DNA of 61,914 nt from a virus: positions 1-61,914 of the IMG/VR virus record IMGVR_UViG_3300046028_003292. One strand, 5' to 3'. Every line of letters begins with the position of its first letter. Position 1 is the stretch's first letter. A program made the position numbers and the translations under genes. Below the pieces are notes generated by a model. The model saw only the letters and a list, made by a program, of their open reading frames with translations, was not told the DNA's origin and did no database searches. Positions 12 to 32,049 of the stretch are shown here, in pieces.

Positions 12-1277
12 TCAATCAAAATATGCATGTGTCCCAAATGGAGGAACGATAGTGTCATTGCCATGAATAATCCAAGTTGTGTCTGTAAAATCTTCATCAC
101 CCCACGAACCAAATGGCATACCATCAGTAAATACAATTAATCGTTTGGTATCTTCGCCACGTTCTTTAAGATAATCAAAAATTACAGTAAAGTCAGTTCC
201 ACCACCACCCATAGGTTCATAATCACTCATAGTATCCAAGTTATCACTAGTAAAGGATTGAGGATTATAAATGTTAGTGTCAAAACAAAATACATGAATT
301 TTGAAACCATCAAACATTTGCATCATTCCCGACACTTCACCGAGAAACATTTGAGCTTGTGTATTACTAATACTACCTGACATATCAATAGCAACAACAA
401 CATCAATTTCTTCACCCGGAGTTGTTCCAGGCATAATAGCATCTAAGTGCCAACCGCGACGATTAGGACGAGAGAATGAATAATCAGTTTTAATAGATGA
501 TGTTAAATTAGTTTGAATTAATTCGCGCCATGGCATTTTTGGATTGGTGACATCATCCAATAATCGTTTAACGCCAGCTGGTAATTGTCCGGCCTCAGCA
601 CCTTTGGCGGCATTAATAATGTTTTGTTTAATTTCTTGACGAAGAGCATCACGTTCTTCCTGAGTCATTGTCTTTGGACGTCCTTTACCTTCACCTTCAC
701 CATCCGAATCATCTTCAGAATCCATATGTTCATCTAACATCTTGTCAATAAGATCATCAAGATTAATCTTAGTAACATCTTTCATTAAATCATCATAGAT
801 ATATTCTGAATATTTACCATCATATTTTGCTTCATACAAACAGGGAACACTGGTAATAAATTCACCAACTTTATGACGTTTCAAATCGGCATTGACTGCA
901 TAATCATTGGCAATGTTCCACATTTGTGGATCACGATTATCACGCCGACCCATATGATCATATACAACATGAAGTACTTCATGTCCAACAAGAAATTCAA
1001 CTTCTTTTGGTTTTAATAAACAGATAAATTTACTATTGTAATAAAAATTACGTCCATCAGTAGCTGCCGTTGAACACCATTCATCTGCATTTATTAATTT
1101 AAGACGAGTAGCCAAATTACCAAAAAATGAATGACGAATCAACAAACCAACACGAGCAGTAATCAATAGATCACGAGCACGGTCATCAATTTTTGAATCT
1201 GTAACACCAATAAGATTATCAAATTTATTAGTTTTGTTTTTACTTTTCTTTTTGGACTTATTAATTACATCACTCAT
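12..1277 (-). CDS. VWA-like / putative metallopeptidase protein (DUF2201 type)
   Basis: This 421-residue protein has a metallopeptidase-like N-terminal half with an HExxH motif (HEVLH, about residues 99-103). An acidic, low-complexity linker follows, then a von Willebrand A domain with a MIDAS motif (DMSGS, about 298-302) and a GGGGTDF segment. This two-part layout is that of the DUF2201 family, whose members usually work with MoxR-type AAA+ ATPases, and such a gene lies directly upstream at 1389-2492. The pair probably acts as a chaperone or remodelling machine in the cytoplasm; its target is unknown. I place the start at 1277 because GGAG lies 6 nt before that ATG. A longer frame would begin at a TTG that is really the -35 box of the promoter. 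Confidence 0.8.
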   Translation of the reverse strand: MSDVINKSKKKSKNKTNKFDNLIGVTDSKIDDRARDLLITARVGLLIRHSFFGNLATRLKLINADEWCSTAATDGRNFYYNSKFICLLKPKEVEFLVGHEVLHVVYDHMGRRDNRDPQMWNIANDYAVNADLKRHKVGEFITSVPCLYEAKYDGKYSEYIYDDLMKDVTKINLDDLIDKMLDEHMDSEDDSDGEGEGKGRPKTMTQEERDALRQEIKQNIINAAKGAEAGQLPAGVKRLLDDVTNPKMPWRELIQTNLTSSIKTDYSFSRPNRRGWHLDAIMPGTTPGEEIDVVVAIDMSGSISNTQAQMFLGEVSGMMQMFDGFKIHVFCFDTNIYNPQSFTSDNLDTMSDYEPMGGGGTDFTVIFDYLKERGEDTKRLIVFTDGMPFGSWGDEDFTDTTWIIHGNDTIVPPFGTHAYFD

Positions 1278-1299
1278 AAAATTCTCCAGTTTATATTGT

Positions 1300-1328
1300 A
1301 TTGTAACATATGATAGATTTATTGTCAA
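1300..1328 (-). promoter_or_regulatory. Sigma70-type promoter (TTGACA-17-TACAAT)
   Basis: The -35 TTGACA is at 1323-1328 and the -10 TACAAT at 1300-1305, with a 17-nt spacer. It drives the VWA gene. The 13 nt from the -35 onward, TTGACAATAAATC, are identical in three further promoters of this window. Confidence 0.8.
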
Positions 1329-1332
1329 GTTT

Positions 1333-1361
1333 AAAAAAAGGATAATGAAAATTCATTATCC
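1333..1361 (-). terminator. Rho-independent terminator after the AAA+ gene
   Basis: On the minus strand a perfect 9-bp stem (GGATAATGA / TCATTATCC, 1340-1361) with a 4-nt loop is followed by seven T. It sits between the AAA+ gene and the promoter of the VWA gene, so the two partners are probably separate transcription units with some read-through. Confidence 0.85.
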
Positions 1362-1388
1362 CTTAAATGGCATCATCCATTTTAAATT

Positions 1389-2492
1389 TTACTTAACGGC
1401 ATCCAATACATATTTACCAAACTTCTTGTGAAATTCCTCAAAATGTTTGAGTTTTGTTGGATCCATATCCAAGTTATATGTCTTGAGAGCAATTTTGGCG
1501 CCCAAGATAACCAATTCAGTTTCAAAGTTGGTCATCATATAAGACAGAAAATTATCAAAAATAGGATTGAAATCTTTGATCGATACTCGTTTATTATCAA
1601 TCATGTCTTTCATTTCATAACACATACTAATGGTCAATGAATACATAGCCGATACTTCTTTAATATCTAATGTTGTTACGATGCCATTCAAAATATCGGA
1701 TGGATTTGGAAGTTTACCTGAAATTTTACGATGAGCGGAAAATTTTGCGGCCAATCCCTCACCTACACAACCAGCAACCAATGTAAATAATGTATCAGTA
1801 TCACTATTGTCATCATAATCTTTCAAGATATCTGATACAAATACCCAACTACGAGGAGTAGCAAATGCATGACTAGAAGATTTTGCATCAAAATCGTACA
1901 AATCATTTTTGGCAAATGACAAATATGACACAACGTCTTTATGAATACCATTAAGAACTGCCCATGTTTGCCATGTATTAAAGTCAGACCGCATTTCAAT
2001 ATGTAAGAAACGATTGGCTAATGGCATTGGCATACGATAAGTAACACCCTTGTCTGATTCACGATTACCACCGGCAATCAGATCAACATTAGATGGCAAG
2101 ACATATTTACCAATTCGGCGATTCAAAATCAATTGATAGGCTGCCGCTTGAACCGTTGGCGGGGCACTATTCATTTCATCCATAAACAATACAATACGTT
2201 TATATTTACTAGCCATTTCTTCATCTGGCAATTCAATCGGAGGTGCCCAATCCATTTTTCCTAAATCTTTGTTATAAAACGGAATACCACGAATGTCGGT
2301 TGGTTCCATTTGAGCCATACGCAAATCAATCAAATGTCCGCCAAGTTCTTTAGTGATTTCTTCTACAATTTCTGATTTACCAATTCCTGGTGGACCCCAA
2401 ATAAATGTTGGGCGTTTGGATTTAAATGATTGTAAAATTGCTTTACGTGCCTGTACAGCGGTTACTGTATACGATTCTGGTTTTGATGCCAT
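1389..2492 (-). CDS. MoxR-type AAA+ ATPase
   Basis: This 367-residue ATPase has Walker A GPPGIGKS (residues 33-40) and Walker B VLFMDE (101-106). A GGNRESD stretch behind them fits the sensor-1 position of MoxR/dynein-branch AAA+ proteins. MoxR ATPases form hexamers that remodel proteins together with a VWA-domain partner, and that partner is the next gene downstream (12-1277). The ATG at 2492 has CGGAG 8 nt upstream. Transcription starts at a near-consensus promoter (2528-2556) and ends at the terminator at 1333-1361. The family call is firm; the client is unknown. Confidence 0.85.
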   Translation of the reverse strand: MASKPESYTVTAVQARKAILQSFKSKRPTFIWGPPGIGKSEIVEEITKELGGHLIDLRMAQMEPTDIRGIPFYNKDLGKMDWAPPIELPDEEMASKYKRIVLFMDEMNSAPPTVQAAAYQLILNRRIGKYVLPSNVDLIAGGNRESDKGVTYRMPMPLANRFLHIEMRSDFNTWQTWAVLNGIHKDVVSYLSFAKNDLYDFDAKSSSHAFATPRSWVFVSDILKDYDDNSDTDTLFTLVAGCVGEGLAAKFSAHRKISGKLPNPSDILNGIVTTLDIKEVSAMYSLTISMCYEMKDMIDNKRVSIKDFNPIFDNFLSYMMTNFETELVILGAKIALKTYNLDMDPTKLKHFEEFHKKFGKYVLDAVK

Positions 2493-5557: not shown

Positions 5558-5587
5558 TAATAAAATAGGGACCCGAAAGTCCCTATT
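5558..5587 (-). terminator. Terminator behind the tmRNA coding piece
   Basis: A perfect 9-bp stem (AATAGGGAC / GTCCCTATT, 5564-5587) with a 6-nt TTTCGG loop is followed on the minus strand by TTATT. It stands right behind the tmRNA coding piece and would end that transcript. Confidence 0.75.
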
Positions 5588-5590
5588 GGT

Positions 5591-5748
5591 ATTTTCTGTT
5601 ACGAGGTATTTCCTACCCTAAGCAACTTTTTCAAGCGGCTAATGCCCAATTTTCATCGTTAGCATTTATTGGTTGTTTAGTTTTTACGTCTATCGCTGAC
5701 GAGTTGTCCATTCCGTTACTTGTTGCCCAATCGAATCCTTTCAGCCCC
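5591..5748 (-). ncRNA. ssrA: tmRNA, coding piece of a circularly permuted ssrA
   Basis: tmRNA frees stalled ribosomes and adds a degradation tag. The piece starts GGGGCTGAAAGGATTCGA, matching the universal tmRNA 5' end (acceptor strand plus D-arm GGATTCGA). The tag frame at 5631-5663 reads ANDENWALAA then TGA, closely like the E. coli tag ANDENYALAA. A short hairpin (CGTC / GACG, 5687-5701) precedes the tag and another (GGTA / TACC, 5605-5617) follows it. The matching 3' acceptor strand is not downstream but upstream, at 5890, so the gene is permuted. GGGGCTG pairs with CAGCTCC there, and TTGGGCA (5724-5730) pairs with TGTTCAA (5922-5928) as helix P2. The exact 3' end is uncertain. Confidence 0.88.
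5631..5663 (-). other. tmRNA tag reading frame ANDENWALAA
   Basis: The codons GCT AAC GAT GAA AAT TGG GCA TTA GCC GCT TGA encode the tag. The ALAA end is what ClpXP and related proteases recognise. Trp at position 6 in place of the Tyr of the E. coli tag is unusual. The resume codon is inferred to be GCT by alignment with E. coli. Confidence 0.85.
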
Positions 5749-5877
5749 ATCATAAAGAGACTTTCTAATAGTGGCTAACATTTTATTAGCTTCTTTAAGC
5801 GACATTTTAGATACATCTTTTGTGTAATGTACTGTTCTGCCGTTTTCAAGCACTATAGTATTGTCAATGTAATTCAT
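5716..5877 (-). CDS. 53-residue ORF nested between the two tmRNA pieces
   Basis: The ATG at 5877 follows AAGGG by 5 nt, only 13 nt after the tmRNA CCA end. The product begins MNYIDNTIVLENGRTVHYTK and continues with a Lys-rich helix (SLKEANKMLATIRKSL), which looks like a real small protein. Its last 11 sense codons run through the 5' end of the tmRNA coding piece (5748 downward) and stop at 5716. Cutting at 5748 to mature the tmRNA would remove the end of the message, so the same transcript can give either complete product but not both. The family is not recognised. It could instead be a chance frame. Confidence 0.55.
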   Translation of the reverse strand: MNYIDNTIVLENGRTVHYTKDVSKMSLKEANKMLATIRKSLYDGAERIRLGNK

Positions 5878-5889
5878 GTAATCCCTTTA

Positions 5890-5970
5890 TGGTGGAGCTG
5901 GCGGTATACGATAACCGCGTCTTGAACACTTTTCTCTTTACTTCTGTCCTGATTACTCAGGGTTTACAAC
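5890..5970 (-). ncRNA. ssrA: tmRNA, acceptor piece of a circularly permuted ssrA
   Basis: The piece ends CGCCAGCTCCACCA with an encoded CCA at 5890, as in E. coli tmRNA, preceded by the conserved GACGCGG. The T-arm stem is GCGGT / ACCGC, but its 8-nt loop (TATCGTAT) is not the canonical TTCRA loop. A hairpin CCTGA-GTAA-TCAGG (5948-5961) with a GNRA tetraloop lies upstream. CAGCTCC pairs with GGGGCTG of the coding piece, with one G-U pair as in E. coli. The 5' end is a guess, bounded by the stop codon of the small ORF at 5977. Confidence 0.85.
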
Positions 5971-5976
5971 AATTCT

Positions 5977-6102
5977 TTAAAATATGTCATCGCCCATACT
6001 TTTAATATCTTCATTATGATTAGACCAATCATAAGTTATAATTTTATAACATGTGTATCCAATTATCGGAATCATAATCAATATGAGAAATAATTTATCC
6101 AT
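5977..6102 (-). CDS. 41-residue membrane peptide, unknown
   Basis: The product begins MDKLFLILIMIPIIGYTCYK, a single hydrophobic span, followed by an acidic tail (DWSNHNEDIKSMGDDIF). It lies directly upstream of the tmRNA acceptor piece. The ribosome site is weak. A 16-codon frame (6145-6095) starting TAATG at the end of the preceding gene overlaps its ATG and could couple translation. No family is recognised. Confidence 0.5.
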   Translation of the reverse strand: MDKLFLILIMIPIIGYTCYKIITYDWSNHNEDIKSMGDDIF

Positions 6103-6626: not shown

Positions 6627-7736
6627 TCAGTCTAAAAACTTAAAACTGTATGTTTTAACGTCCATTCTTCCGTTTCTACCTTTTCCTGACCATATGTTGT
6701 GTACGTTTCTACTGACATCTCGTAATTCCCATCGTTCATTTCTCTTTAATAAATTAGCCATACTAGCACTACTTAACTTAATTTGAACATCAAATCCTAA
6801 TTCATGTTTCATATAATCAGCGGTAATATCAGTCATTCTACCACCTAATCCAAATCCACAATAATCAGGATGAACTACAATTCTATTGGCATGCATTACC
6901 ATTGGTATACCAGCATCTTTATGTTCTTGTTTCCACATAACATAATTACTATAGGCAATAAATCCTATTTGAATATCTTCATGAAACAACCCAAACATAT
7001 AGGTTTTTCCTGGTGGTAAACTATCACTTAGATAGTGATATTTGCTAAAGACTTTCCAACTTTTTGAGTCTGTAAGCTGTCTAATCCCAAAAACAAGCTC
7101 TTCGGATCTGGTATGCCTTGGACAAAGTAACCTCCGATCAATATAGTCTTGAGTATTACAGTCAATGATCCAATCTGGGTTAAGCCAGTCTACGATATCA
7201 TAATGACAACTCAATAAAACTATTTGTTTACCTGTTTTTCTAGCATGTTTTTGAATACTATGTGACATAGCTTTAGCCACTGAACGATCCACTACCGAAG
7301 TCCATTCATCAATAACAATAAACTGTCCATCTAATCTTGCCATTTGTAAGGCACATTCAGCCCTGGCTTGTTGACCATTACTTAGAGTTTTGGCTGGTGC
7401 AATCCATGTAACTGGTGATCCTAAACCAACTCCACTTAAGAATGATACGCGTTCATCATAACTATAACTATCATCAAATTGACTGATAACAGCCTGATCC
7501 GGTTTCAATAATGTATCAAAACAATTATCACCCCAAATATGTTTGGCTAATGTGGTTTTACCTGATCCACTATTACCAATAATCAGACCAATATTATATT
7601 GACTTTCAATATCAGCACGTATTTTGATATGATGTGTCAGTTTCTTTTCTACATCTAGGTCAACACTATTGGCTGCTTTAATAACGTAAAAGTCTTCTGG
7701 AGCATCACATTTAAGTGTTAATTCATAAGTTTGCAC
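6627..7736 (-). CDS. ABC-type ATPase fused to a GNAT acetyltransferase domain
   Basis: The 369-residue protein has an ABC ATPase half: Walker A GNSGSGKT (about 54-61), signature LSNGQQ (118-123), Walker B FIVIDE (139-144) and a switch His (SCHYD, about 178). The second half (about 215-369) looks like a GNAT fold, with HANRIVVHPDYCGFGLGGRM shaped like an acetyl-CoA binding loop. No membrane segment is present, so it is a soluble enzyme, not a transporter. Phage GNAT relatives include Mom-type DNA modification enzymes, but the reaction here is unknown. The start is GTG with AGAGGA 5 nt upstream, and it overlaps the preceding frame. Confidence 0.75.
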   Translation of the reverse strand: MQTYELTLKCDAPEDFYVIKAANSVDLDVEKKLTHHIKIRADIESQYNIGLIIGNSGSGKTTLAKHIWGDNCFDTLLKPDQAVISQFDDSYSYDERVSFLSGVGLGSPVTWIAPAKTLSNGQQARAECALQMARLDGQFIVIDEWTSVVDRSVAKAMSHSIQKHARKTGKQIVLLSCHYDIVDWLNPDWIIDCNTQDYIDRRLLCPRHTRSEELVFGIRQLTDSKSWKVFSKYHYLSDSLPPGKTYMFGLFHEDIQIGFIAYSNYVMWKQEHKDAGIPMVMHANRIVVHPDYCGFGLGGRMTDITADYMKHELGFDVQIKLSSASMANLLKRNERWELRDVSRNVHNIWSGKGRNGRMDVKTYSFKFLD

Positions 7737-7903
7737 TTGAATCCTCTTTCAGTAAGTTCTTCATATATCTTCTTAAGTTTCATTTCACCATCTTTAGTTC
7801 CTGGCAATTCTAGAATTAAGATATTTCTAACATCATCAACCACTTCTTTTTTCTTTTTTGGTGGTGGTAAACCAGTAAAATCAAAAATGTTTTCTTCGCT
7901 CAT
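7718..7903 (-). CDS. 61-residue charged protein upstream of the ABC/GNAT gene
   Basis: The product begins MSEENIFDFTGLPPPKKKKE, has a lysine run and then a mixed helix-strand C-terminus (ILILELPGTKDGEMKLKKIY). It overlaps the GTG of the ABC/GNAT gene by 19 nt, so the two are translationally coupled and probably work together. No family is recognised. The -10 box of its promoter ends only 6 nt before the ATG, which predicts a leaderless message. Confidence 0.6.
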   Translation of the reverse strand: MSEENIFDFTGLPPPKKKKEVVDDVRNILILELPGTKDGEMKLKKIYEELTERGFKCKLMN

Positions 7904-7909
7904 TTAATG

Positions 7910-7938
7910 ATTATCTCATAATTATACATAACAGTCAA
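7910..7938 (-). promoter_or_regulatory. Sigma70-type promoter (TTGACT-17-GATAAT), probably leaderless
   Basis: The -35 TTGACT is at 7933-7938 and the -10 GATAAT at 7910-7915, spacer 17. Only 6 nt separate the -10 from the ATG at 7903. A second possible -10 (TATAAT, 7921-7926) would leave a short leader. Confidence 0.65.
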
Positions 7939-7948
7939 GAGATTTTGG

Positions 7949-7956
7949 ATAAATAC
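7949..7956 (+). promoter_or_regulatory. Late-promoter-like core (ATAAATAC) abutting the 7963 start
   Basis: ATAAATAC is followed by 6 nt (TATATC) and then the ATG at 7963, with no ribosome site between. It lies back to back with the minus-strand promoter at 7910-7938. Confidence 0.5.
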
Positions 7957-7962
7957 TATATC

Positions 7963-8610
7963 ATGAAAATCAATCAAATTATCAATGAAGAAAGTCACAT
8001 AGATCCAGGTATTATTGATGCTCTCAAGAAAAAAGGTTATAAACAGAAAGGTCGTGGAGATGATGCGATTGCATTCTTAGAACCAGGAACTGGACAAATT
8101 CTCAAAATATTTGGAACTGGAGACGGGGCAGATGTTGTGAAAAAGAATGGCAAACCACAGACCAATTTTAATGAACATCAAAAGATGGCATATTATTGGT
8201 CTAAGTATTGCGATATGCATTCTGATAATAAATTTCTACCAAAGTTTTCAGGCATTGAAAGTTTTCATTGGGGCAGTTCAGTCTATCTACAGATTCGTCA
8301 AGAACGATTATATGACTTGGAAAAAGATCAAAAAAGAACAATAGAATCCATGGCCATGATGGCCAGACGCAAAGTTCCGTTTGAGACAATGGACGAAAAG
8401 TACACTAATAATAATTATGCTGACACCAGAGCATCATGGAAACAAATAAAAGAGAAAATAGATGACAAAGACTTGAGATTGTTCTATCAGACAATGATAG
8501 ATATTGCCAATATTGCGAATCAAAAAAACTGGGCCTATGATCTTCACGGTGACAACATCATGATGCGTCGAGATGGCACACCAGTTATTCTTGATCCATG
8601 GGCTCTATAA
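7963..8610 (+). CDS. Small kinase-fold protein, copy 1
   Basis: The 215-residue protein has the marks of a reduced protein-kinase-like fold. A strand with a lysine (GQILKIFGT) could be the ATP-binding lysine. YDLHGDNIMMRRDG is a catalytic loop like that of aminoglycoside phosphotransferases (HGDxxxxN). DPW at the extreme end stands where DFG would be. It is far shorter than normal kinases (about 250-300 residues) and stops right after DPW. A related gene lies at 8980. The ATG at 7963 is preferred to a TTG six codons earlier because it aligns with the MKYQEF start of the relative. The substrate is unknown. Confidence 0.65.
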   Translation: MKINQIINEESHIDPGIIDALKKKGYKQKGRGDDAIAFLEPGTGQILKIFGTGDGADVVKKNGKPQTNFNEHQKMAYYWSKYCDMHSDNKFLPKFSGIESFHWGSSVYLQIRQERLYDLEKDQKRTIESMAMMARRKVPFETMDEKYTNNNYADTRASWKQIKEKIDDKDLRLFYQTMIDIANIANQKNWAYDLHGDNIMMRRDGTPVILDPWAL

Positions 8611-13155: not shown

Positions 13156-14097
13156 TTAAAGTTTGATAGTAATATGTTTAACTGAATTCCATTGATAATT
13201 ACGTATACGATTTTTAGTATGATATAATACTGAACCAATACCACTACTTTCATCACCCGGATTCGGCAATGACCATATATATTTCCACATTGGTTCTACA
13301 ATGTCTTTATTCGTTTTACTGTTCATAGCACAACCTCCCATGTAAACTAATGAATCTGCATCAGTTAACTGTTTGGCTTTTATCATAACTGATTCAATTT
13401 GAATTTCAAATACTTGTTGAACAGATGCAGCAATGTCACATTTATCTTGCAAATTTTTAATCTCGTGAGGCCAATCAGATATACCACGATGAAGATTCTT
13501 CTGAGAATGAATCAGACCATTCATATATGTTAATACGAGATTATAATATCTGGTAGAATCTCCCAATTCTGCCATGTTTTGTAATAAGTATTCGTCTTTG
13601 ATTGGTGTATGTCCCACTAACTTAGTAAATGCACTATAAAATAATCCTAAACTATGTGGATAATTGCGACTCCATACTTTATGTAATTCACCGTGTTTAG
13701 CTTGCCAAATTGTAGCACATTCAAATTCTCCTATTGCATCAAGAACCACAATTGCACAGTTACTAAATGGACTTGTATAATATCCAGCCGCCGCATGACT
13801 AGAATGATGTGAAGTATACGTAATAGGCGCTGATGTATATAGATTCATATAATTTTTTGGTAATACACTAAAATCAAATGCCCTATTATATTGACCAGCA
13901 TATATTTGCCGAGCCTTTTTTATCCAAGGATTTTCATACCAAAAAATTCGGTCAGGAGTTCCGTGTTCAAGTGCTAAATCAATGTTTAAACTTGATATTT
14001 GATCATGTTGACCAACATAATTGTCAATAAATTTATCATCTTTAAATACGGCAATACCATGTCCGTGGTTTAATGCGTTTACTCCCCAATGTATCAT
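13156..14097 (-). CDS. Carbamoyltransferase N-terminal domain (NodU/CmcH/TobZ type), C-terminus missing
   Basis: The 313-residue product matches the Kae1-like domain of NodU/CmcH O-carbamoyltransferases. It has HHSSHAAAGYYTSPF (metal/ATP-site histidines), VVLDAIGEFECATIW and PHSLGLFYSAFTKLVGHTPI. In that family this domain binds carbamoyl adenylate and a second, C-terminal domain (about 200 residues) makes the adenylate from carbamoyl phosphate. Full proteins have roughly 550-600 residues, so this one lacks the second domain. It may need a host partner or do a different reaction. Its ATG overlaps the preceding small gene's stop (ATGA). Confidence 0.75.
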   Translation of the reverse strand: MIHWGVNALNHGHGIAVFKDDKFIDNYVGQHDQISSLNIDLALEHGTPDRIFWYENPWIKKARQIYAGQYNRAFDFSVLPKNYMNLYTSAPITYTSHHSSHAAAGYYTSPFSNCAIVVLDAIGEFECATIWQAKHGELHKVWSRNYPHSLGLFYSAFTKLVGHTPIKDEYLLQNMAELGDSTRYYNLVLTYMNGLIHSQKNLHRGISDWPHEIKNLQDKCDIAASVQQVFEIQIESVMIKAKQLTDADSLVYMGGCAMNSKTNKDIVEPMWKYIWSLPNPGDESSGIGSVLYHTKNRIRNYQWNSVKHITIKL

Positions 14098-14294: not shown

Positions 14295-15467
14295 TCATAG
14301 TATAGTTTTATAATCAGAATTTCTGAATCGATCAGTTTCTTGAAGTTTATAAATTATCTGTTCAAATTTTATGGAATTATCTTTACTCATCATATAATTG
14401 ATCAACCCACGACAACGATCTATATAATCATAATCATGATTGTTTTCAGTTAGCCATAGTATATAACTTTCCCATCGTTCTACAATCTGATTTTTTTTAT
14501 CCAATGGTAAAACCGTGGGATCCATATTTTCTGGTTGATGAGCAATACTATACATAATATCTTTGGCGGAACATATATGTGTTGACAATAGATTCTGTCC
14601 CAAGTCAGGAAGAGACAACATACTCATTACACTAGCCACACTATTTATTTTTATTTTGACATGTGGCGTCTGTTGCTTTACTGTCAAAATATTATTAATA
14701 ACTGAATCATAATCAGATCCATATCTGATATAATCATTGACATGTTTATAACCATCCAAACTAACAATTACAGTAATATTAGTAAATTTGTTCCATAGAT
14801 CAGTCAACTGCTTATCTCTATATTGAATGTTTGTCAAATTAGTATTATAGGTTAAACTTGGATCTAATTCATGTTCTATTAAGATATTCAGTAGATTATA
14901 GTTTTCTTCAGTTATCAGTGGTTCACCACCAGCCAAATATATTTCTTTAACCTGAACTAGATCATTAAAAATTTCGTCTATAATCTCATGATCTAATCTA
15001 TGTAGAGTTTTATTTTTTCTATTATGTATTTTATTGAATTCAACCGCAATGCTACTGCTAAAAGTAGGACTGCATGTTAAACATTTTAAATTACATAAAT
15101 TTCCAAATCTTATATCCAAGTACAATGGTTCAAAATGTTCAACTGTTCCATCTTGTAGTATTTCAATTGGTTTATCAGAAGACTCAGCAATATTATTTAT
15201 TTTTTGTTTATAAGGAGTCATATTCATTTTCATCTGAGACTCACATTTGTAACAGCCTGCAGGAATTTTATGTTGTATAAATTCCGATCTAATTTGAATC
15301 ATTCTTGGATGATTCATTGATTCTAAAATTGAATGAGTATTATTTAATACTGAAAATTCATGATTCTTATCCTCATACAAACAACATGGCAATAATCTAC
15401 TATCTGGATTAACATATAAATGAGTCCAAGGAGCGTAACAAAATAGATCAGATGATTTGTTATTCAT
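14295..15467 (-). CDS. Radical SAM protein 1, with N-terminal auxiliary Cys region
   Basis: Radical SAM enzymes use a CxxxCxxC-bound 4Fe-4S cluster to split SAM into a 5'-deoxyadenosyl radical. Here the motif is CNLKCLTC (C125, C129, C132) and AGGEP follows at about 175. The first 80 residues carry five Cys (C10, C28, C29, C72, C75) in a SPASM/twitch-like pattern, placed before the core rather than after it. The 390-residue protein is the last of the eight-gene run and overlaps the preceding gene by 8 nt. Twitch/SPASM enzymes often act on peptides or sugars; the substrate here is unknown. Confidence 0.85.
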   Translation of the reverse strand: MNNKSSDLFCYAPWTHLYVNPDSRLLPCCLYEDKNHEFSVLNNTHSILESMNHPRMIQIRSEFIQHKIPAGCYKCESQMKMNMTPYKQKINNIAESSDKPIEILQDGTVEHFEPLYLDIRFGNLCNLKCLTCSPTFSSSIAVEFNKIHNRKNKTLHRLDHEIIDEIFNDLVQVKEIYLAGGEPLITEENYNLLNILIEHELDPSLTYNTNLTNIQYRDKQLTDLWNKFTNITVIVSLDGYKHVNDYIRYGSDYDSVINNILTVKQQTPHVKIKINSVASVMSMLSLPDLGQNLLSTHICSAKDIMYSIAHQPENMDPTVLPLDKKNQIVERWESYILWLTENNHDYDYIDRCRGLINYMMSKDNSIKFEQIIYKLQETDRFRNSDYKTIL

Positions 15468-16716
15468 TATTCATTAGTAATTGATTAAGTTCTGGAAATG
15501 TTTCTGAAAAGTTAGTTTTTCTAATTGTATCTAAATGTGTCACATACTCAGTAATGGCTTCAATATTAGTATTAGAAGATTCTAAAATCCAACTAAGATT
15601 GCTTTTCAGTGACGTAAAATAATATTCAGGAAATTTGTCATTGACTTCAAGTAAAAATTCCTGTATTTTCTGTTCAATTTTATTCTTAACATTTTTTGGA
15701 AGAATCTGTGGATTTAAATATGTTGGATTGTATACTCTTCCCAAAACAATAGGATATCTAGTAGTATTTTTATAGTCTAATTTCATCCACCAGCGATATA
15801 ATTCTACTAAATCTAAAACATTAAGAGCATGTATACTGGTTAAGATCATTGTTTTTGCACCACTAGCAATGCTAAGATTAACATTATGTTCTATCTCAGA
15901 CCATTGAGCAGGATATCTGACATAGTAATTTTTATCATCATATCCATCTATAGAGAACATCAATTCTATTTCTTTAAATTTTGGAATCAATGACCAAAAC
16001 GAAGTGGGTATTTGAGTTCCATTAGTATGAAATCTAATTTTAATATGTTCACTATGTCCAGTATCTACCATGTACTGTATTAAATTATTAATGCTTTTTG
16101 ATAAGAACGGTTCGCCCCCGCCAAATATTATTTCTTGTAGTTCTGGAACTAATATTTCAAATTCTTTCCAAAATTCTGGTTTTTCAACCCACGTAAACTG
16201 ACCAATGTCAATCATTGAGTTACTAGTCCATATGGATTTCAGTGATGGATTTTGACTGATTTCACTTAATAGTTTACTATCAGCCAACCATTTAGAACTT
16301 TCATTTGGACGACACATTATACATTTTAGATTACATGTATTTCCGGCTCTAATATCTAGTGTAAATGGATCAATACTACTATGTCCGAATTCATCTACTG
16401 ATTCTAAAGCTAAATCAAGTTTTTCTGAGTATTTAGATGAATAAAACTTATTTGATTTAAGTCTATGACTTTCTATACCATACTCTTCATCGAAATAGCA
16501 TTGTTTACAATTTTTAACTGGCTGATCTGCCATCATTGCCAATCGTATACTTTTCATGTCATTGCTGTTCCATGCCTGCTTTATAGTCATTGAATTTAAA
16601 TTATCAGATGTTCCGGCGGCAATACAACATGGAGTGACATTGCCATTGGTCAACGTTGCCATGTGAATAAATGGGTATACACAAAAAGTTTTAGATTCTT
16701 TTAAATTAAATTTCAT
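15460..16716 (-). CDS. Radical SAM protein 2, with N-terminal auxiliary Cys region
   Basis: The 418-residue protein has the same order as its downstream neighbour. The N-terminal Cys set is C12, C30, C31, C70 and C73 (CVYPFIHMA, TPCCIA, CKQC). The core motif is CNLKCIMC (C128, C132, C135), with GGGEPFLS after it. Its sequence is well diverged from the neighbours, which argues against a recent duplication. It overlaps the next gene by 8 nt and the previous one by 4 nt (ATGA). Confidence 0.85.
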   Translation of the reverse strand: MKFNLKESKTFCVYPFIHMATLTNGNVTPCCIAAGTSDNLNSMTIKQAWNSNDMKSIRLAMMADQPVKNCKQCYFDEEYGIESHRLKSNKFYSSKYSEKLDLALESVDEFGHSSIDPFTLDIRAGNTCNLKCIMCRPNESSKWLADSKLLSEISQNPSLKSIWTSNSMIDIGQFTWVEKPEFWKEFEILVPELQEIIFGGGEPFLSKSINNLIQYMVDTGHSEHIKIRFHTNGTQIPTSFWSLIPKFKEIELMFSIDGYDDKNYYVRYPAQWSEIEHNVNLSIASGAKTMILTSIHALNVLDLVELYRWWMKLDYKNTTRYPIVLGRVYNPTYLNPQILPKNVKNKIEQKIQEFLLEVNDKFPEYYFTSLKSNLSWILESSNTNIEAITEYVTHLDTIRKTNFSETFPELNQLLMNNE

Positions 16717-17627
16717 ATGACCTTGTTTAGTTTGGGAAAAACTATATCAAAATTAGTATTACGCTTTTTATCCATACTAATAATAAAATTACGAAGTAAT
16801 ACATTTTGTCTTTGATCTTTATGTTGCCACATAAAATCTAAACATCCTTTGAGAGAATTAATTAATAATTTGTGACAGTCATCTTGATTGCATTGGCCAA
16901 TAAAGTCCCAAATTATTTGATTTATATATTCTTTAGTATGTTGTTCAACAAATCTTACATCCATCCAAGTTGGTCTATGAACATATTTAAAAGTTAAAGG
17001 ATTATAATCCAAGTTTAAATTTAAACTGAATATCCACTTAATTATATCAGGAAAACAACTTAAGCTTAATGAATGAACCGATAGAGCGAAATATATTTTA
17101 ACATTTGAATATGACATTGATTTTTTTACATTATCAACTACGGATTCCCATCTAATTGGCCATCTAAGATATTCGGCTTGTTCTTCAGTAGCATCAATGC
17201 TGAATGTTATAATGACCTGATTAAATTTTTCTAATATTTCAAAAAACCAATCAGGAATTGACATTCCACTAGTAAATATTTTTAATGTTATCTTACTGGC
17301 ATGATCATGATTACTTAAATCTTTTATTAATTTTAATGTGTTTTCACTTTGTAATGGTTCACCACCATTCAAACTAATCTCAGTCAATTGAGTTAAATTT
17401 TGCCAAAAATTATCCCAATATACAGAATTTTTAATTTCAGATTTTTCTGTGAATGCATTTTTAGCTCTGGTTCTATAAAATGCTTTGATTACTCTATGAT
17501 CAGTAATTTGAGTTAAAGAATCAGATTCATTTCTATAGAAATCACTATATGATGGCGAGCAATGAATACACATTGCCTGACAATTTGTATCTAATGCCAA
17601 TTCTATTGATGTATTTAAATTGTTCAT
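16713..17627 (-). CDS. Radical SAM protein 3, short form without N-terminal Cys region
   Basis: At 304 residues this is the shortest family member. The core motif CQAMCIHC (C16, C20, C23) lies at the very start, so the N-terminal auxiliary region of its neighbours is missing. LNGGEPLQS follows. It may use only the one cluster or work in a complex with a longer neighbour. It overlaps both adjacent genes by 4 nt (ATGA), which suggests matched production. Confidence 0.8.
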   Translation of the reverse strand: MNNLNTSIELALDTNCQAMCIHCSPSYSDFYRNESDSLTQITDHRVIKAFYRTRAKNAFTEKSEIKNSVYWDNFWQNLTQLTEISLNGGEPLQSENTLKLIKDLSNHDHASKITLKIFTSGMSIPDWFFEILEKFNQVIITFSIDATEEQAEYLRWPIRWESVVDNVKKSMSYSNVKIYFALSVHSLSLSCFPDIIKWIFSLNLNLDYNPLTFKYVHRPTWMDVRFVEQHTKEYINQIIWDFIGQCNQDDCHKLLINSLKGCLDFMWQHKDQRQNVLLRNFIISMDKKRNTNFDIVFPKLNKVI

Positions 17628-18907
17628 AGTTTTGAAATCAATTGATATAATTCCGGATTAACAGTGTTTAAACTCTGTTCTCTATGCTGATCCAGAAGCA
17701 GTGTAAACTCTTTAAATTTTATAAGTTCTGTCTCATTATACATGTCTTTATTACATTTGTCAACTATTACATTAATTCTACCCACAAAATGAGGATTTAA
17801 TGATGATCTAGATGTTTTCAAAAACTCGTTAAGTTTAATCAATGCTCGTTGTTTCATATCATATGGGAGAATTTCAAACGTCAAGTGAGTGGGAAATGTT
17901 AATACTATAGGTAAAATGTTTACTCTATTAAATCCATATTCTTCATTTATTGAATCAATCCATTTAAAGAATTCAGTGATCTGACTGAGATTAACCGACT
18001 GAACAACTGGAGTGCAATGTATAGTTATTCTATGTGGATCCATTTTTGCCAATTTACGAATGTTGGTTTCAAATACCGACCACTTGGCTGGATATCTAAG
18101 ATACTCATGAACATTACCATATCCCTCACAACTTGCCAAAAATGTCACACTCTTAAACTGATTTATTAAATCCAAAAACTTAGGTTGAATGTTTGTCATG
18201 TTAGTACTAAAAATTAATGACACAGACTGTGATCGTCCAGTTTCAACCAATCTATTCAATATTGCATAGTTTTGTTCAATAATAGTTGGTTCACCACCAG
18301 TAAAATATAGTTGTTCTACGTTGTCTTCTTGAGATACAAAATTTTCCCAAAATTCAGATGTTTGATACCAATCATTGATATTGTCAACTTTTTTATCATT
18401 GAACAAAAAATATTTTCTTATTTCCGGATTATTAATCTGTATTTCTCTTGACTCTTTTAACAATTGTACACTATTAACAGGACCACAACTTCTACATTTT
18501 AGATTACACATATTGCCAAATCTCAAATCAAAATATTTAATATCTGGTTCAATTTGATAATCTTGTAATTCACTGTCTAGTATCTTTTGAGTTAGTTCTG
18601 GGTCTTTTTCAAACCATCCTTTAGTATATGTCTGTCGCTGACTAATACCGCCAGAAGATTCTTCATCGTAACATGTCTGACATGTAGTTGGGCGAACGTC
18701 TGTCATCATATCTTTTCTCAGTGATTTCATATAATCGCTGTTGAAAAATGTTTCAATTTTATCATACCCTAAATTATATGGCTTGCCAGTTGCATCCACA
18801 TTTCTATTTCTTGTCAGACAGCATGGTTTAATTTCCCCACCAGGATCTGCAGCCACATGAATGAATGGCAAAACACAGAAACTAGAATTTTTTATTTTAT
18901 TAGACAT
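17624..18907 (-). CDS. Radical SAM protein 4, with N-terminal auxiliary Cys region
   Basis: The 427-residue product has C11, C29, C30, C76 and C79 in the N-terminal part and the core CNLKCRSC (C134, C138, C141), then FTGGEPTI. CVLPFIHVAADPGGEIKPCC is close to the equivalent in proteins 2 and 5. It overlaps its upstream neighbour by 8 nt and its downstream one by 4 nt. Confidence 0.85.
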   Translation of the reverse strand: MSNKIKNSSFCVLPFIHVAADPGGEIKPCCLTRNRNVDATGKPYNLGYDKIETFFNSDYMKSLRKDMMTDVRPTTCQTCYDEESSGGISQRQTYTKGWFEKDPELTQKILDSELQDYQIEPDIKYFDLRFGNMCNLKCRSCGPVNSVQLLKESREIQINNPEIRKYFLFNDKKVDNINDWYQTSEFWENFVSQEDNVEQLYFTGGEPTIIEQNYAILNRLVETGRSQSVSLIFSTNMTNIQPKFLDLINQFKSVTFLASCEGYGNVHEYLRYPAKWSVFETNIRKLAKMDPHRITIHCTPVVQSVNLSQITEFFKWIDSINEEYGFNRVNILPIVLTFPTHLTFEILPYDMKQRALIKLNEFLKTSRSSLNPHFVGRINVIVDKCNKDMYNETELIKFKEFTLLLDQHREQSLNTVNPELYQLISKL

Positions 18908-20162
18908 TGATATCTTCTTGATTATAATAATTTAAATAATATTCGGCAACTTCCGGTATATTGACACGAAAATCTTGATTTCTTTCTTTATCAGTAACTT
19001 TGGTAAAATACAAAAATTCTTGAAATGTATTAACATCTGAACTAAGATTAATAGTCTCAATAATATTGGTCAATCGGCCCTTGAGCCAATGACTATTTTT
19101 AAAGTTATTAACCAAATCACTGTTCATCAATTCATTCAACCGTTTGAGAGCCTCAATTTTCATTTCATCTGGCATATTATTAACTGCTAAAAATTTTGGA
19201 TTACTAAGCATACAGAGTACTGGAGTAATATTTAATTCAGATATAGTCCATTCTAGAATTTCTTTTAAATATAACACATTTAGATTTTGAACAGTAGTAT
19301 TAGTGGTCAAGTAAAAATTTTCATTTAAATATGGACGTAATTTAATTAAATTTTCCTCAATAGTAGTCCAAGATAATCCACTTCTAATATATTCATGAAC
19401 TTGTTTATATCCATCTAAACTAATATCAATGTTAACGGTTTTAAATGTACTTAAATCTTCTAACAATTGTACAGTGATTTTAGTAAAATTAGTATTGACA
19501 TACAGATCAATATGTTTACTATGGCCAGATTTTGCTGCTTCGGATATCAAGTGATTAGTTGATTCATTTAAAAATGGTTCTCCTCCACTGAATCTTAATA
19601 CTTCAATGTTTTCAAAATTTTTAATAGTTTCTAAAAAATACTTGTCATGTATTACAGTACTACTGCCTGAGCCAAAACTTAATTTATGCCATCCTGGTTC
19701 AGTTTTTTGTATTTTGTTATACTCTTTTTCAATAAGTATACTACATGATGGGTAACACATACGACATTTTAGATTACATATGCTACCGGTTCTAACTTCA
19801 ACACTGACTGGTCCAGTCATGGTTGTTTCACTGAGATATTCATCATACATTTTCTGAAATTCTGGTCTTTTTGGACCATTATACCAATATGACAATAGAT
19901 CCAATCTCAGACTACTACCACCCTTGTCTTCCGCTTTATAACAGACTTGACACTGTGGTAATTTTACATCATTGATCATTTTTTTACGAACATTGTTAAG
20001 TTCATTACAGTTCCATACTTCAGTCATATTTGCACTGTCACTACTGAACAATTTTCCATCATTGTCTTTTATTCCGTCATTGATCAGACAACAATATTTA
20101 ATTTTACTGTCGGTGCTATTAGTCAGATATATAAATGGATTGGGACAAAATGAAGAATTCAT
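18900..20162 (-). CDS. Radical SAM protein 5, with N-terminal auxiliary Cys region
   Basis: The 420-residue product has an N-terminal Cys set (C6, C24, C25, C71, C74, plus C52) and the core CNLKCRMC (C129, C133, C136), then FSGGEPFLN. It shares the domain order of proteins 1, 2 and 4 but little direct sequence. It starts in the last base of the preceding gene's stop codon, so the two are coupled. Confidence 0.85.
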   Translation of the reverse strand: MNSSFCPNPFIYLTNSTDSKIKYCCLINDGIKDNDGKLFSSDSANMTEVWNCNELNNVRKKMINDVKLPQCQVCYKAEDKGGSSLRLDLLSYWYNGPKRPEFQKMYDEYLSETTMTGPVSVEVRTGSICNLKCRMCYPSCSILIEKEYNKIQKTEPGWHKLSFGSGSSTVIHDKYFLETIKNFENIEVLRFSGGEPFLNESTNHLISEAAKSGHSKHIDLYVNTNFTKITVQLLEDLSTFKTVNIDISLDGYKQVHEYIRSGLSWTTIEENLIKLRPYLNENFYLTTNTTVQNLNVLYLKEILEWTISELNITPVLCMLSNPKFLAVNNMPDEMKIEALKRLNELMNSDLVNNFKNSHWLKGRLTNIIETINLSSDVNTFQEFLYFTKVTDKERNQDFRVNIPEVAEYYLNYYNQEDINV

Positions 20163-21133
20163 TAATACTTACTCACTTCTATATCAACTGAACAAGCACA
20201 TCTTTCCTTATTGCAAATCACTGGATCAATAGGAAGATCAAAATCATCATCTAATAGATTTGCTATTTTACCACCCACATGACAGTAACCTCTATAAACA
20301 TCTTCAAATTCTAATATTAATCCTTCCAAGCCAATATTACATGTCAGACCATTAAATTTATTTAAATCTTTAGCGATAAGAGTCTTATAATCAAGTCTTT
20401 CAGTTGTTTGATCATCATATGTTACAGTAGCTGGCCCACGCCCAATTTTTCCACCACTTTGAGCTAGTTTATGTTTTGGTATATCATGAGATCCATAAAA
20501 ATTAGGAGGATTTGCTAAAAATTGTCTTTGCTCTTCAGTATAAGAATATAGTAGACCTTCATTAGTAGTTCCAAAATTTTGTTGAATTGGAAGATGAATT
20601 ACACCTACATTTCTCTTGAGTTTTTTAAATTCATTTGCATATCCTATTAGTTCGTCCCAATGATCTGGATCCATCATGATATCAACATTGATCCAACAGT
20701 GTTGGCTTAGATACTCAACTTTTTCATAGAACTTGTCAAATTTAGTAAATTCTGGATGATAACTGAATACCATATGAGTAAGATATGGTTCTATTTCTTT
20801 CCACCATTCTAAACCACGACCACTATTACTAGTCATAGTTACTTCACATCCATTCTCTCTGAGATATTTAACTATCTCTATGAATTCTGGATGTAATGTT
20901 GGTTCACCACCACTAAAGGCAATAATTATTTTAGTATCTGAACTCAATTTACTTTTTAAATTAGTATATAACTTTTTTACATGTTCAAATGTAATATGTC
21001 GTCTATTACCACCATTGAGTCCTGGTGGACAATAACTACATCTATAATTACAAAAATCATGCAGAGTCCAACATATAAAAAATGTTTTTCTGTTTACTGA
21101 ATCCAATTGTCTTTCTATCTTGATTACTTTCAT
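20162..21133 (-). CDS. Radical SAM protein 6, core first with C-terminal Cys cluster
   Basis: The 323-residue product differs from its neighbours. The core motif CNYRCSYC (C28, C32, C35) is near the N-terminus with FSGGEPTLHPEF behind it. Extra Cys lie at the C-terminus (CNIGLEGL, YCHVGG, CNKERCACS), which is the usual SPASM order. Its CxxxCxxC context (CSYCPPGLNGGNRR) is also of another subfamily. It probably does a different step from proteins 1-5. It starts 5 nt after the stop of the unknown gene at 21139. Confidence 0.85.
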   Translation of the reverse strand: MKVIKIERQLDSVNRKTFFICWTLHDFCNYRCSYCPPGLNGGNRRHITFEHVKKLYTNLKSKLSSDTKIIIAFSGGEPTLHPEFIEIVKYLRENGCEVTMTSNSGRGLEWWKEIEPYLTHMVFSYHPEFTKFDKFYEKVEYLSQHCWINVDIMMDPDHWDELIGYANEFKKLKRNVGVIHLPIQQNFGTTNEGLLYSYTEEQRQFLANPPNFYGSHDIPKHKLAQSGGKIGRGPATVTYDDQTTERLDYKTLIAKDLNKFNGLTCNIGLEGLILEFEDVYRGYCHVGGKIANLLDDDFDLPIDPVICNKERCACSVDIEVSKY

Positions 21134-21138
21134 TTATA

Positions 21139-22221
21139 TTAATCCGTGTTTTTACAAAATGATTTAAAAGTTTCGAATAATTCTGATTTCTGTGAAGATT
21201 CAAAATCAACTTTGTTCCAATGATAATCATATATTGATTCAATTATAGTAACATCATTATCATCAATCACTGATATTTTAAAAATATCCAAATATTTACT
21301 AAGATATTGTTCAATTTCCAGAGGAGACATGTTCGTATATGGAGTTAAATCAACCGTTGCTACATGTAACCACCCATGAGCCAAATATTTATCGTCGATT
21401 GAAAGTCCATTCAATTCTAGCCATTTAGCATATTTGTCAATATTATTTTGATGATGAAGTCTATTATCAGTTCCGGCACCAAAATCTATAGTTATTTCCC
21501 CACTAACATATCGTAAACCACTGATACCAGAATCGTGAATATCTTGATCTCCATCTACATATGCTTCCCAATGAATCTTTCCAATTTGACAATAACCTAG
21601 AAACACTCTACCAGCGCCACGTTGAAGAGTAAAATGATCATGATCTTCAGGCTCTAACAATTCTCTTGGGCCATTTATAAATGCTATAATAGCTGATGGA
21701 TTAATTCCATCTGGGTATACATTCTTTGCTCGAATCTGCTTGATTAAAATTTCCATTTCATGACAATGATTGTTTAATTGTCTGATAGCATATCTAGTTT
21801 CATTATCGGCATTTATAAACCAATCACTGATATTCCAAACTTGACCCTGAAGTATTTCAAAATGATGATGTAATTTATTAAACAAATCATGATTCACTTG
21901 AAAATCCGATGTCATAACATTTGACTCATTGAATACTTCTGTTATAATATATTTTTCTGTCCATAGACATTTTGGACTGTCATTATAATTATTAATCACA
22001 TTAATAAATTTCATAAGATTGTTCGTCAAATATTTTAAATCACGAGATCCATCTGGCCAACCTACCCAACAATAATTTTTCTCTAGTTTAAGATTCTCTG
22101 TCAGACAGTGTGTTAGTTTTTCGATCCATTTTTTACCAATTGGGGCATCTTTTGGTATAATATATACATCATGAGTTTCTGACTCATTTAATGGATTTCT
22201 TAATGTTAACTTAACTTTCAT
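21139..22221 (-). CDS. Unknown 360-residue protein inside the radical SAM run
   Basis: No known family is recognised. The protein has no CxxxCxxC and no nucleotide-binding motif. It contains His-rich blocks (FNKLHHHFEILQGQVWN, NNHCHEMEIL, DHDHFTLQRG) that could bind a metal, and the stretch FINGPRELLEPED. It lies between radical SAM proteins 6 and 7 and overlaps the latter by 4 nt (ATGA), so it belongs to the same unit. It could be a partner, a metal enzyme or a substrate carrier. ATG 22221 is chosen because AGGA lies 6 nt upstream; ATG 22236 is the alternative. Confidence 0.65.
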   Translation of the reverse strand: MKVKLTLRNPLNESETHDVYIIPKDAPIGKKWIEKLTHCLTENLKLEKNYCWVGWPDGSRDLKYLTNNLMKFINVINNYNDSPKCLWTEKYIITEVFNESNVMTSDFQVNHDLFNKLHHHFEILQGQVWNISDWFINADNETRYAIRQLNNHCHEMEILIKQIRAKNVYPDGINPSAIIAFINGPRELLEPEDHDHFTLQRGAGRVFLGYCQIGKIHWEAYVDGDQDIHDSGISGLRYVSGEITIDFGAGTDNRLHHQNNIDKYAKWLELNGLSIDDKYLAHGWLHVATVDLTPYTNMSPLEIEQYLSKYLDIFKISVIDDNDVTIIESIYDYHWNKVDFESSQKSELFETFKSFCKNTD

Positions 22222-23630
22222 GTTAGTCCTTGACATAGTTTATAAAATTCTTCATACTCTGGAAATGTTTTTAAAAAATTAGTATCTCGACGACGATCAT
22301 GTTCGTCTACGAAAATAACAAAATCTTTTCTATATATATTCAATTGATCATCTATCAATGCATCTTTATGTAACATAAATGCTTGCAATCTTTTAACTTT
22401 ATCTATTTCAAGTTGTGTGAATCCGAAAGGTACATTTTTATGTTGTTCCATATATAATTCAGTTTCTTTCAAATATTTTACAAACTCATTAGGAAGTATG
22501 TTAATACATTGATGTGGAGGATATCTCAGATATGGATTATCATATGTAACTATTTTGCCCTGAGGATGAAATTCTTTTCGTAACTCATGAAAAAATTTAA
22601 TTAAATTAGGAAAATCAGGCACTGAAAATATATTGAAAGTTACTGTGAAACCTATTCTACAGTTGTCAACAGTGTTTAAGTACTTGTAAACATTTCTTTT
22701 AAATTGTTCCCAATCAAGTCCATCTCTTCCATATTCTGCTTGTTTACCAGTAGCATCAATACTAAGAAATAATTTAAAATTTTGAATAACATTAGCATTT
22801 TCTATCTCAATTGCCGCTTCTAAAATCTTATCAATGAGTGAATCAGGTACACATAAATTACTGTTGACAACCATTTCTAAATTTTTATTTTCATGAGTTT
22901 TAACATAGTCAAGTAATTTAAAAGTATGCTTACTCATTAGCGGCTCGCCGCCAGTCACTCTGAGAACTTTAACATGAGGATACATTTTAGGTAAGTAATC
23001 CCAAAAAGCGTCAATATACGGATTGTCATCTGACTCTTTGATATATGGTAATGCTTGTCCTTTTAGACCAAAATTATTAAATTTTGTACTAGTATTATAT
23101 CCTCCATACTTCTGAATTTCTTCTAACCACTTAGAACTAACTCCTGGATTACAGTAACTACATTTTAAATTGCAGGTAGTAGAAAAACTAAGTTCAACGT
23201 GTCTAGGATAAACATTTTCATCACCTGTCATATTTTTAAAATCTGCTAAATCATACTTGGTCCATTTCTCATCGTTTCTGATAATTCTGTCACTGATGTG
23301 ACCCAAATCTTCCATGTTCCAGCAGTATTGACATTCTTTAGGTCTTTCTCCATTTAACATCAATTTTCGTTGACTCTTTTTATATTCAGTATTATGAATA
23401 GCACCAGAATCTTTTTTTAATTCTTCAAGTGGAATTTTGTGAGTCCATGGATGATAACAACTATGAGTTTCACCATGAGCCAAATGTATAGTAGTCATGT
23501 ACCATTTTGCAGCACAAAAAGTCGGACTAATTTCATTTGCCTGATCATAGCTTTTTATATCACTACTAGCCTGAATATTTTTTCTTGGAATAATATTAAT
23601 AATTTTAGATTTATTCACTAGTTTGCCCAT
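22218..23630 (-). CDS. Radical SAM protein 7, HSCxHP subgroup
   Basis: The 470-residue product has the N-terminal blocks SPTFCAAKW, GETHSCYHPWTHKIP and CQYCWNMEDLG (C39, C58, C100, C103), then the core CNLKCSYC (C153, C157, C160) and VTGGEPLMS. This N-terminal signature is shared only with the next upstream gene, so the two form a separate subgroup. From memory, related proteins occur in T4-like marine phages. It overlaps the preceding gene by 13 nt. Confidence 0.85.
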   Translation of the reverse strand: MGKLVNKSKIINIIPRKNIQASSDIKSYDQANEISPTFCAAKWYMTTIHLAHGETHSCYHPWTHKIPLEELKKDSGAIHNTEYKKSQRKLMLNGERPKECQYCWNMEDLGHISDRIIRNDEKWTKYDLADFKNMTGDENVYPRHVELSFSTTCNLKCSYCNPGVSSKWLEEIQKYGGYNTSTKFNNFGLKGQALPYIKESDDNPYIDAFWDYLPKMYPHVKVLRVTGGEPLMSKHTFKLLDYVKTHENKNLEMVVNSNLCVPDSLIDKILEAAIEIENANVIQNFKLFLSIDATGKQAEYGRDGLDWEQFKRNVYKYLNTVDNCRIGFTVTFNIFSVPDFPNLIKFFHELRKEFHPQGKIVTYDNPYLRYPPHQCINILPNEFVKYLKETELYMEQHKNVPFGFTQLEIDKVKRLQAFMLHKDALIDDQLNIYRKDFVIFVDEHDRRRDTNFLKTFPEYEEFYKLCQGLT

Positions 23631-31866: not shown

Positions 31867-32049
31867 TTAATCGCATCTCATATGAAGTATTACTTTTCCA
31901 GTATTAGGATCAGTAATCTTCATTGAACTACTAAAGTGAAACCCTACTTGTTCGTTTGGTTTCTTAGTTGGTGAACTTTGTCTCTTATTCGAACTATGTT
32001 CGTCACTTATTTTAGATGCATTATTTGTGTTCATGTTATATTTAGTCAT
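31867..32049 (-). CDS. 60-residue short relative of the 31238 protein
   Basis: The product begins MTKYNMNTNNASKISDEHSS, a disordered polar head, and ends in HFSSSMKITDPNTGKVIL. The tail matches the N-terminal strand pair of the next gene (GFLKIHDPKSGEVF). It overlaps the end of the 4132-residue gene by 4 nt (ATGA). It could be a small adaptor that uses the same docking strand, or a broken duplicate. Confidence 0.55.
   Translation of the reverse strand: MTKYNMNTNNASKISDEHSSNKRQSSPTKKPNEQVGFHFSSSMKITDPNTGKVILHMRCD

Follow-up and report, generated by a model that had tools for sequence, protein, structure and literature searches.

The minus strand of a virus contig from IMG/VR (record IMGVR_UViG_3300046028_003292, all 61,914 nucleotides of which were analyzed and are termed here the window) carries at 5561-5994 a circularly permuted tmRNA gene, as recognized by Rfam models at their gathering thresholds. 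The beta_tmRNA model RF01850 matches 5561-5994 (-) with 86.0 bits against a cut-off of 84 (E 1.6e-24, model positions 1-331 of 331), and the tmRNA_permuted model RF04321 matches 5631-5949 (-) with 78.7 bits against a cut-off of 47 (E 2e-13, 1-213 of 213). These are the only two Rfam matches in the window, and both lie at this locus, span the full model and follow the permuted order; a tmRNA of normal order was not among the matches of the window at these thresholds. Beta is the best of the lineage models, by a narrow margin of 2 bits above the cut-off from which the host is not read. Together with the viral nature of the contig and the phage genes around the locus, these matches bear out the original prediction of a phage-borne, permuted tmRNA gene of the two-piece type, for which it had proposed the covariance-model search as a check. 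The neighboring genes code for a baseplate hub/tail lysozyme-like protein, virion proteins, an SbcC-like gp46 and gp25, and among phages the gp46 protein is best matched (42%) in Pseudomonas jumbo phages such as PA5oct and Paride.

Two other regions of the window deserve a brief description. A run of nine ORFs at 14295-25035 (-) shows the Pfam Radical_SAM domain in eight, with the match at 16713-17627 being below the cut-off, and SPASM also in two; this run, a seemingly unusual phage cargo, adjoins a carbamoyltransferase gene at 13156-14097. Further along, 32046-44444 (-) is taken up by one ORF of 4132 codons, for which the Pfam matches (FG-GAP_2 and CBM_5_12) all fall below threshold.

Within the tmRNA gene the acceptor (3') piece comes first, at 5890..5949 (-), with its 5' limit taken from the RF04321 match and its end, CAGCTCCACCA, including an encoded CCA at 5892-5890. 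It is followed by an intervening spacer of 141 nt at 5749..5889 (-), between the CCA and the GGGG, and then by the coding (5') piece at 5600..5748 (-), defined from the sequence and Rfam with an approximate 3' limit. The first base of the latter, 5748 (-), is the predicted RNase P site, as inferred from the pairing of GGGGCTG with CAGCTCC; the order in which a CCA ending at 5890 precedes a GGGGCTG start at 5748 is thus present on the minus strand as had been claimed. The other proposed elements were likewise recovered. The acceptor stem GGGGCTG/CAGCTCC forms seven of seven pairs with G3.U70, and is followed by ACCA; a second pairing, of TTGGGCA (5730-5724) with TGTTCAA (5928-5922), is possible with two of its seven pairs being G-U; and the tag frame ANDENWALAA-stop, seen in the sequence and in the Rfam match, lies at 5631..5663 (-), where it ends an ORF at 5631-5753. 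A terminator-like hairpin, AATAGGGAC-TTTCGG-GTCCCTATT with a short T run, is seen at about 5562..5587 (-) and is paired in the RF01850 alignment.

Neither of the two features with which the remainder of this work is concerned, a non-canonical T-loop and a spacer with an open frame, figured in the original prediction. The T-arm, at 5901..5918 (-), has the stem GCGGT (5918-5914)/ACCGC (5905-5901) and the loop TATCGTAT (5913-5906). The loop is thus an 8-nt UAUCGUAU on an intact 5-bp stem, and the usual 7-nt TTCGANT, this being the consensus of the domains surveyed here, is absent. For this survey tmRNAs were collected from IMG/VR with a pattern blind to the T-arm, which gave at least 120 loci; among the first 80 of these the script labeled 27 as permuted, 42 as standard (a loose label) and 11 as neither. 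With L098 dropped as spurious, 26 permuted loci were left in these first 80, with a 7-nt T-loop in 25 and a 6-nt one in L101. A set of 52 domains among the matches listed, three of which (L184, L029 and L002) were added by hand, has a 7-nt T-loop in 50 and UAUCGUAU in no other member; the tally is TTCGACT 27, TTCGATT 18, TGCAAAT 2 and TTCAATT 2, with single copies of TATCGTAT (window), GGCAGTG (L029) and TTCGAA (L101). The T-arm finder accepted stems with at least four of five pairs and loops of 6-9 nt, such that odder arms would escape it. A scan for exact copies of the window T-arm yielded just two near-identical IMG/VR contigs, of 51,428 and 120,921 bp. Since these contigs (L006, with 11,536 bp compared, and L007, with 6,797 bp) show 99.98-99.99% identity to the window and 100% over the tmRNA gene, the odd T-loop is not an error of a single assembly. 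ARAGORN reported no tmRNA in the window but does find the gene of a close relative, L003, and its silence is probably due to the non-canonical T-loop. The idea that this loop marks an integration or homing site was set aside as no more than a lead, there being no tie between the GIY-YIG-like ORF of contig L029 and the window. That ORF, at 7623-8303 (+) of L029 (20.6 bits, below the Pfam cut-off of 27), lies directly before a permuted tmRNA with a T-loop that is also odd, GGCAGTG, and one stem mismatch.

We then looked for syntenic phages by means of the gene just upstream, which codes for a 369-aa ATPase/acetyltransferase-like protein, and obtained 25 loci. RF04321 matched two of the 22 records searched, L029 (264,637 bp) and L030 (159,889 bp), this search having left out L027 (the same phage), L048 and L051. 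A permuted tmRNA is present too in L048, an 89,795-bp contig equivalent to L003. No RF04321 match was found in the 101,735-bp record of L028, in which the upstream gene is 83% identical; many of the other syntenic records are short fragments, in which absence says little. The best relatives found are the virus contigs L048, L030 and L029, in each of which this gene is followed downstream by a permuted tmRNA, and this suggests long residence and exchange among phages. Comparison of the window, L048 and L030 revealed compensated changes in the T-stem (GCGGT/ACCGC versus GAGGG/CCCTC), in the inner part of the acceptor stem (CTG/CAG versus AAG/CTT) and in a hairpin pair (CGTC/GACG versus CGAC/GTCG), which are good evidence that the RNA has been kept as a folded molecule. 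Acceptor pairing in the wider survey carries no weight here, since seven of seven pairs and G3.U70 were conditions of the finder.

These changes bear on whether the gene works. The tRNA-like fold could suffer from the odd T-loop, and one might picture a decaying or decoy tmRNA, in which the altered loop blocks charging or the binding of SmpB/EF-Tu and the RNA persists as a relic or as a competitor of the host tmRNA. The singularity of the 8-nt loop among the 52 domains listed and the silence of ARAGORN would fit such a state, as would a form from phage DS6A that lacks the CDS and inhibits the endogenous tmRNA in E. coli, as cited in the available text of PMC11915505. Nevertheless, where the T-stem and the hairpin depart from those of L048 the changes compensate each other; the CCA, G3.U70, tag frame, stop and terminator-like hairpin are all intact, and we hold this alternative to be improbable.

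The relatives also hint at a modular history. L030, L188 and L189 are identical in T-arm, acceptor strands and D-side segments (17/17, 11/11, 7/7 and 18/18), and their spacers of 74, 111 and 97 nt agree in about half of the columns of a forced alignment. Similarly, L048 and L030 have the T-arm and D side in common and differ in the spacer (62/143 columns), whereas the window and L048 agree in 138/141 columns of the spacer and in merely 10/18 of the T-arm. Thus, spacers, and in the window the T-arm, seem to have been replaced on their own. An exact scan of a genome collection for the signature AAATGC-ANDENWAL (upstream stretch plus tag) gave no match. Capture from a host, as had been proposed, is a possible origin, and no host is claimed here.

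The spacer itself contains an ORF at 5716..5877 (-) with its ATG 12 nt past the CCA. Up to the predicted RNase P site it comprises 43 codons, or 91% of the spacer, and in an uncut transcript it would run on to a stop 10 codons further in the window (53 aa in all) and 19 codons further in L048. Comparable arrangements were observed in three other virus contigs, with L139 having been found by a general pattern and L184 and L188 by patterns built on the window tmRNA rather than on its ORF. In L139 (222,825 bp) a 200-nt spacer bears a 62-codon ORF with its ATG 10 nt past the CCA and its stop 1 nt before the GGGG; in L184 a 209-nt spacer is filled by a 61-codon ORF with its ATG 11 nt past the CCA and its stop within the spacer; and in L188 a 111-nt spacer has a 32-codon ORF with its ATG 11 nt past the CCA and its stop 1 nt before the GGGG. 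The three tmRNAs score 147.3, 66.2 and 127.1 bits, respectively, with RF04321, all above the cut-off, and their spacer ORFs are unrelated to that of the window and to each other.

To assess these frames, the ATG frames of 52 distinct spacers were set against those of 2000 dinucleotide shuffles of each, after removal of duplicates and of a spurious 452-nt hit in L093 and with L184, L187, L029 and L002 added by hand. Among the matches listed, p<0.01 was obtained for 4 of the 52 (L184, L139, L003 and the window, representing three independent lineages) against 0.5 expected, and p<0.05 for 5 (with L188 added) against 2.6 expected, the latter being only about twice chance. The individual values are 0.0035 for both L139 and L003, the homologue of the window, and 0.03 for L188, while none of the 2000 shuffles equaled L184; for the window, the value of 0.005 means that an ATG near the spacer start, followed by a frame that stays open through the spacer, is more than chance would give. 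L109 (p 0.0525) and L130 (p 0.071) are borderline.

It is nonetheless possible, though we would put it somewhat short of an even chance, that this is an ordinary phage permuted tmRNA, the spacer being a folded rod that joins the acceptor strands and its frame being open by chance. Several observations favor such a reading. L078, L089, L095, L124 and L131 likewise have GTG/TTG frames of 55-66 codons that begin in the spacer and extend into the coding piece, and in L109 a 32-codon ATG frame fills a 101-nt spacer at the above borderline value, with its ATG 1 nt past the CCA. Furthermore, the codon signal of the spacer ORFs is weak: a pooled codon model (37,523 codons) ranks the ORF frame best of six in the window, L003, L139, L184 and L188, but it discriminates poorly, as 19-33% of open wrong-frame stretches equal these ORFs. 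With a model from the genes of the window alone, 92% of gene stretches outscore the window ORF, and 24% of the stretches open in a wrong frame score at least as high as it does; the L188 spacer has two further open frames. On the other side stand the lengths and the anatomy. The 209-, 200- and 141-nt spacers are the three longest classes among the matches listed, and all are ORF-bearing; and among the same matches, four of the eight distinct spacers of at least 105 nt (the window and L003 being taken as one) are filled by an ATG ORF that starts 10-12 nt past the CCA. By anatomy and statistics, we consider on balance that the spacer probably codes for a protein.

Two further lines of argument were tried and rejected. 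The AAAGG before the ORF is not independent evidence of ribosome binding, an AAAG start being common to many spacers without such ORFs; the AAAG before the window ATG is moreover paired in the predicted fold. Neither does the spacer shared by the window and L048 prove a coding constraint, for the whole cassette is far more alike than its neighbors (138/141 identical columns in the spacer versus 861/1127 in the gene for the 369-aa protein and 172/269 in that for an 84-aa protein), and recent exchange also explains such likeness. The two spacers differ at three positions, two of them silent, which are too few for a test of selection.

Searches with the predicted proteins were largely negative. 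No homologue of the window ORF was found in phages or plasmids, nor in viral contigs beyond the same phage and L026, which is equivalent to L003; in a close-relative search of genome contigs 182 stretches fit the peptide pattern and none was confirmed. Compared with 14 records, it matched six at E<=10; five of these matches are to the same spacer, and the other, in G007, is 33% identical (E 0.05) with an internal stop. The ORFs of L184, L139 and L188 gave no tblastn match in phages, and in the collections searched none of the four spacer ORFs turned out to have a homologue standing on its own. Pfam (window ORF only) and PHROGs (all four) returned weak matches only, with best E values of 0.096 and 0.13. 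AlphaFold, from an alignment of only two sequences, models the window protein as a hairpin and a helix over residues 3-42 (mean pLDDT 78.1, with the five models at 69-78) and without secondary structure past residue 42; the L139 protein is modeled as all-strand, with a pLDDT of 77.8 in the best model and 44-56 in the other four. Fold searches with the L139 model (viral structures and PDB) and the window model (viral structures only) found nothing at E<=0.001.

In the window and L048, a 12-bp helix formed by the ends of the spacer and the last two bases of the CCA is predicted to prolong the acceptor stem. The window spacer folds better than its shuffles (z -2.95, -3.09 (two stretches) and -3.97), and so do most of the other surveyed spacers, the ORF-bearing ones included, as would suit a spacer with a purely structural role. 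In the predicted folds of L139, L184 and L188 the ORF leader pairs with the spacer end, and a pairing of leader and end is predicted too for spacers without such ORFs (L078, L174). The folded precursor would therefore cover the stretch before the ATG, and translation would have to start on the nascent strand.

We accordingly favor, with moderate confidence, the proposal that the locus codes for a working two-piece tmRNA of a large tailed phage, the spacer of which doubles as a mini-mRNA. To the gene order, pairings, compensated changes, tag, ORF and the anatomy common to unrelated spacer ORFs, all of them observed directly, this proposal adds processing, charging, tagging and spacer translation, which we infer would proceed as follows. 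The transcript would fold such that its two distant halves build one tRNA-like domain; RNase P would cut before the GGGG and a 3'-end nuclease after the CCA to yield the two-piece tmRNA, which would be charged with alanine via G3.U70 and tag stalled products with ANDENWALAA. The excised spacer would then serve, beyond scaffolding, as a small mRNA: ribosomes may load near the ATG while the transcript is still growing and the 3' strand of the spacer helix, which would cover the stretch preceding the ATG, is yet to be made, and translate a 43-residue protein.

The window ORF reaches the predicted RNase P site on a codon boundary, between codons 43 and 44 (a one-in-three chance). This raises the unlikely scenario of a self-monitoring message, in which the cut leaves no stop, a ribosome translating the spacer stalls at its end, and the tmRNA from the same transcript rescues that ribosome and tags the product for destruction. 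The 43-residue protein might then, just as doubtfully, accumulate only if trans-translation fails, as an arfA-like fail-safe inside the tmRNA gene. The spacers of L139, L184 and L188, in which the ORF stops are kept, would under such a scheme be plain mini-mRNAs. The parallel with E. coli arfA, which in the available text of PMC11721466 is a small ORF cut by an RNase to give a non-stop message with a tmRNA-tagged product, is one of analogy only: RNase P would be the cleaving enzyme in the window, where the ORF is itself part of the tmRNA gene, and no sequence relation is claimed.

The tmRNA gene as such is real and of a known kind, phage-borne permuted tmRNAs being already in print (PMC9004378). 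According to the portions of that report available, 402 of 18,146 phage genomes have 133 unique tmRNA structures, of which ARAGORN suggested 53 to be two-piece. The ssrA gene of the Methylophilales phage Melnitz described there is, like that of the window, phage-borne, permuted and two-piece; it differs in being of the alphaproteobacterial type, with a glutamine riboswitch, whereas the best lineage model for the window is beta. The window further differs in its altered T-loop and open-frame spacer, and the available text does not mention a spacer ORF in Melnitz. Relative to the RF04321 and RF01850 models, the window gene is alike in piece order, acceptor and T pairing and tag frame, and departs in the T-loop. 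A tmRNA survey (PMC11915505), in its accessible sections, puts the number of unique bacteriophage sequences at 79 and that of permuted ones at 11,946, and describes a tRNA-Ala gene in one spacer and a repetitive element also inside spacers; those sections do not mention a protein-coding spacer, in contrast to the open frame of the window. The accessible part of PMC3985003 describes the processing into two pieces, for which RNase P and tRNase Z are probably responsible. No report of a protein-coding spacer in a permuted tmRNA was found among the open-licence PMC titles and abstract beginnings listed, supplements aside, which is not proof of absence. New here are thus the altered T-loop and the putatively coding spacer; the coding point draws on anatomy and statistics, with translation being a prediction.

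Some other permuted tmRNAs came to light in the course of this survey. In contig L124 the 78-nt spacer at 6919-6996 (+) resembles, as judged by eye, a complete tRNA-Asn (GTT) gene. At 1100-1760 (+) of L181, a contig of 177,097 bp, the acceptor piece is present a second time, in imperfect form, ahead of a gene for an 81-aa protein (1229-1471), which precedes an intact permuted tmRNA and has a homologue at 3738-3971 in L180. Synechococcus phage BUCT-ZZ01 (L009) has a permuted tmRNA at 1286-1704 (+) with the tag ANDETFSMALAA, and the feature table of its record shows no tmRNA.

On the basis of known tmRNA function, the gene has been proposed to protect phage translation or to change protein turnover. 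Its altered T-loop amounts to a natural experiment on the extent to which trans-translation depends on the tRNA-like elbow. If spacers of this kind do code for proteins, then a rescue RNA and an mRNA would both come from one transcript, and the long spacers in tmRNA databases would be worth translating; coding spacers would, if true, explain why some phages have such long spacers, and would provide a ready reporter of tmRNA processing.
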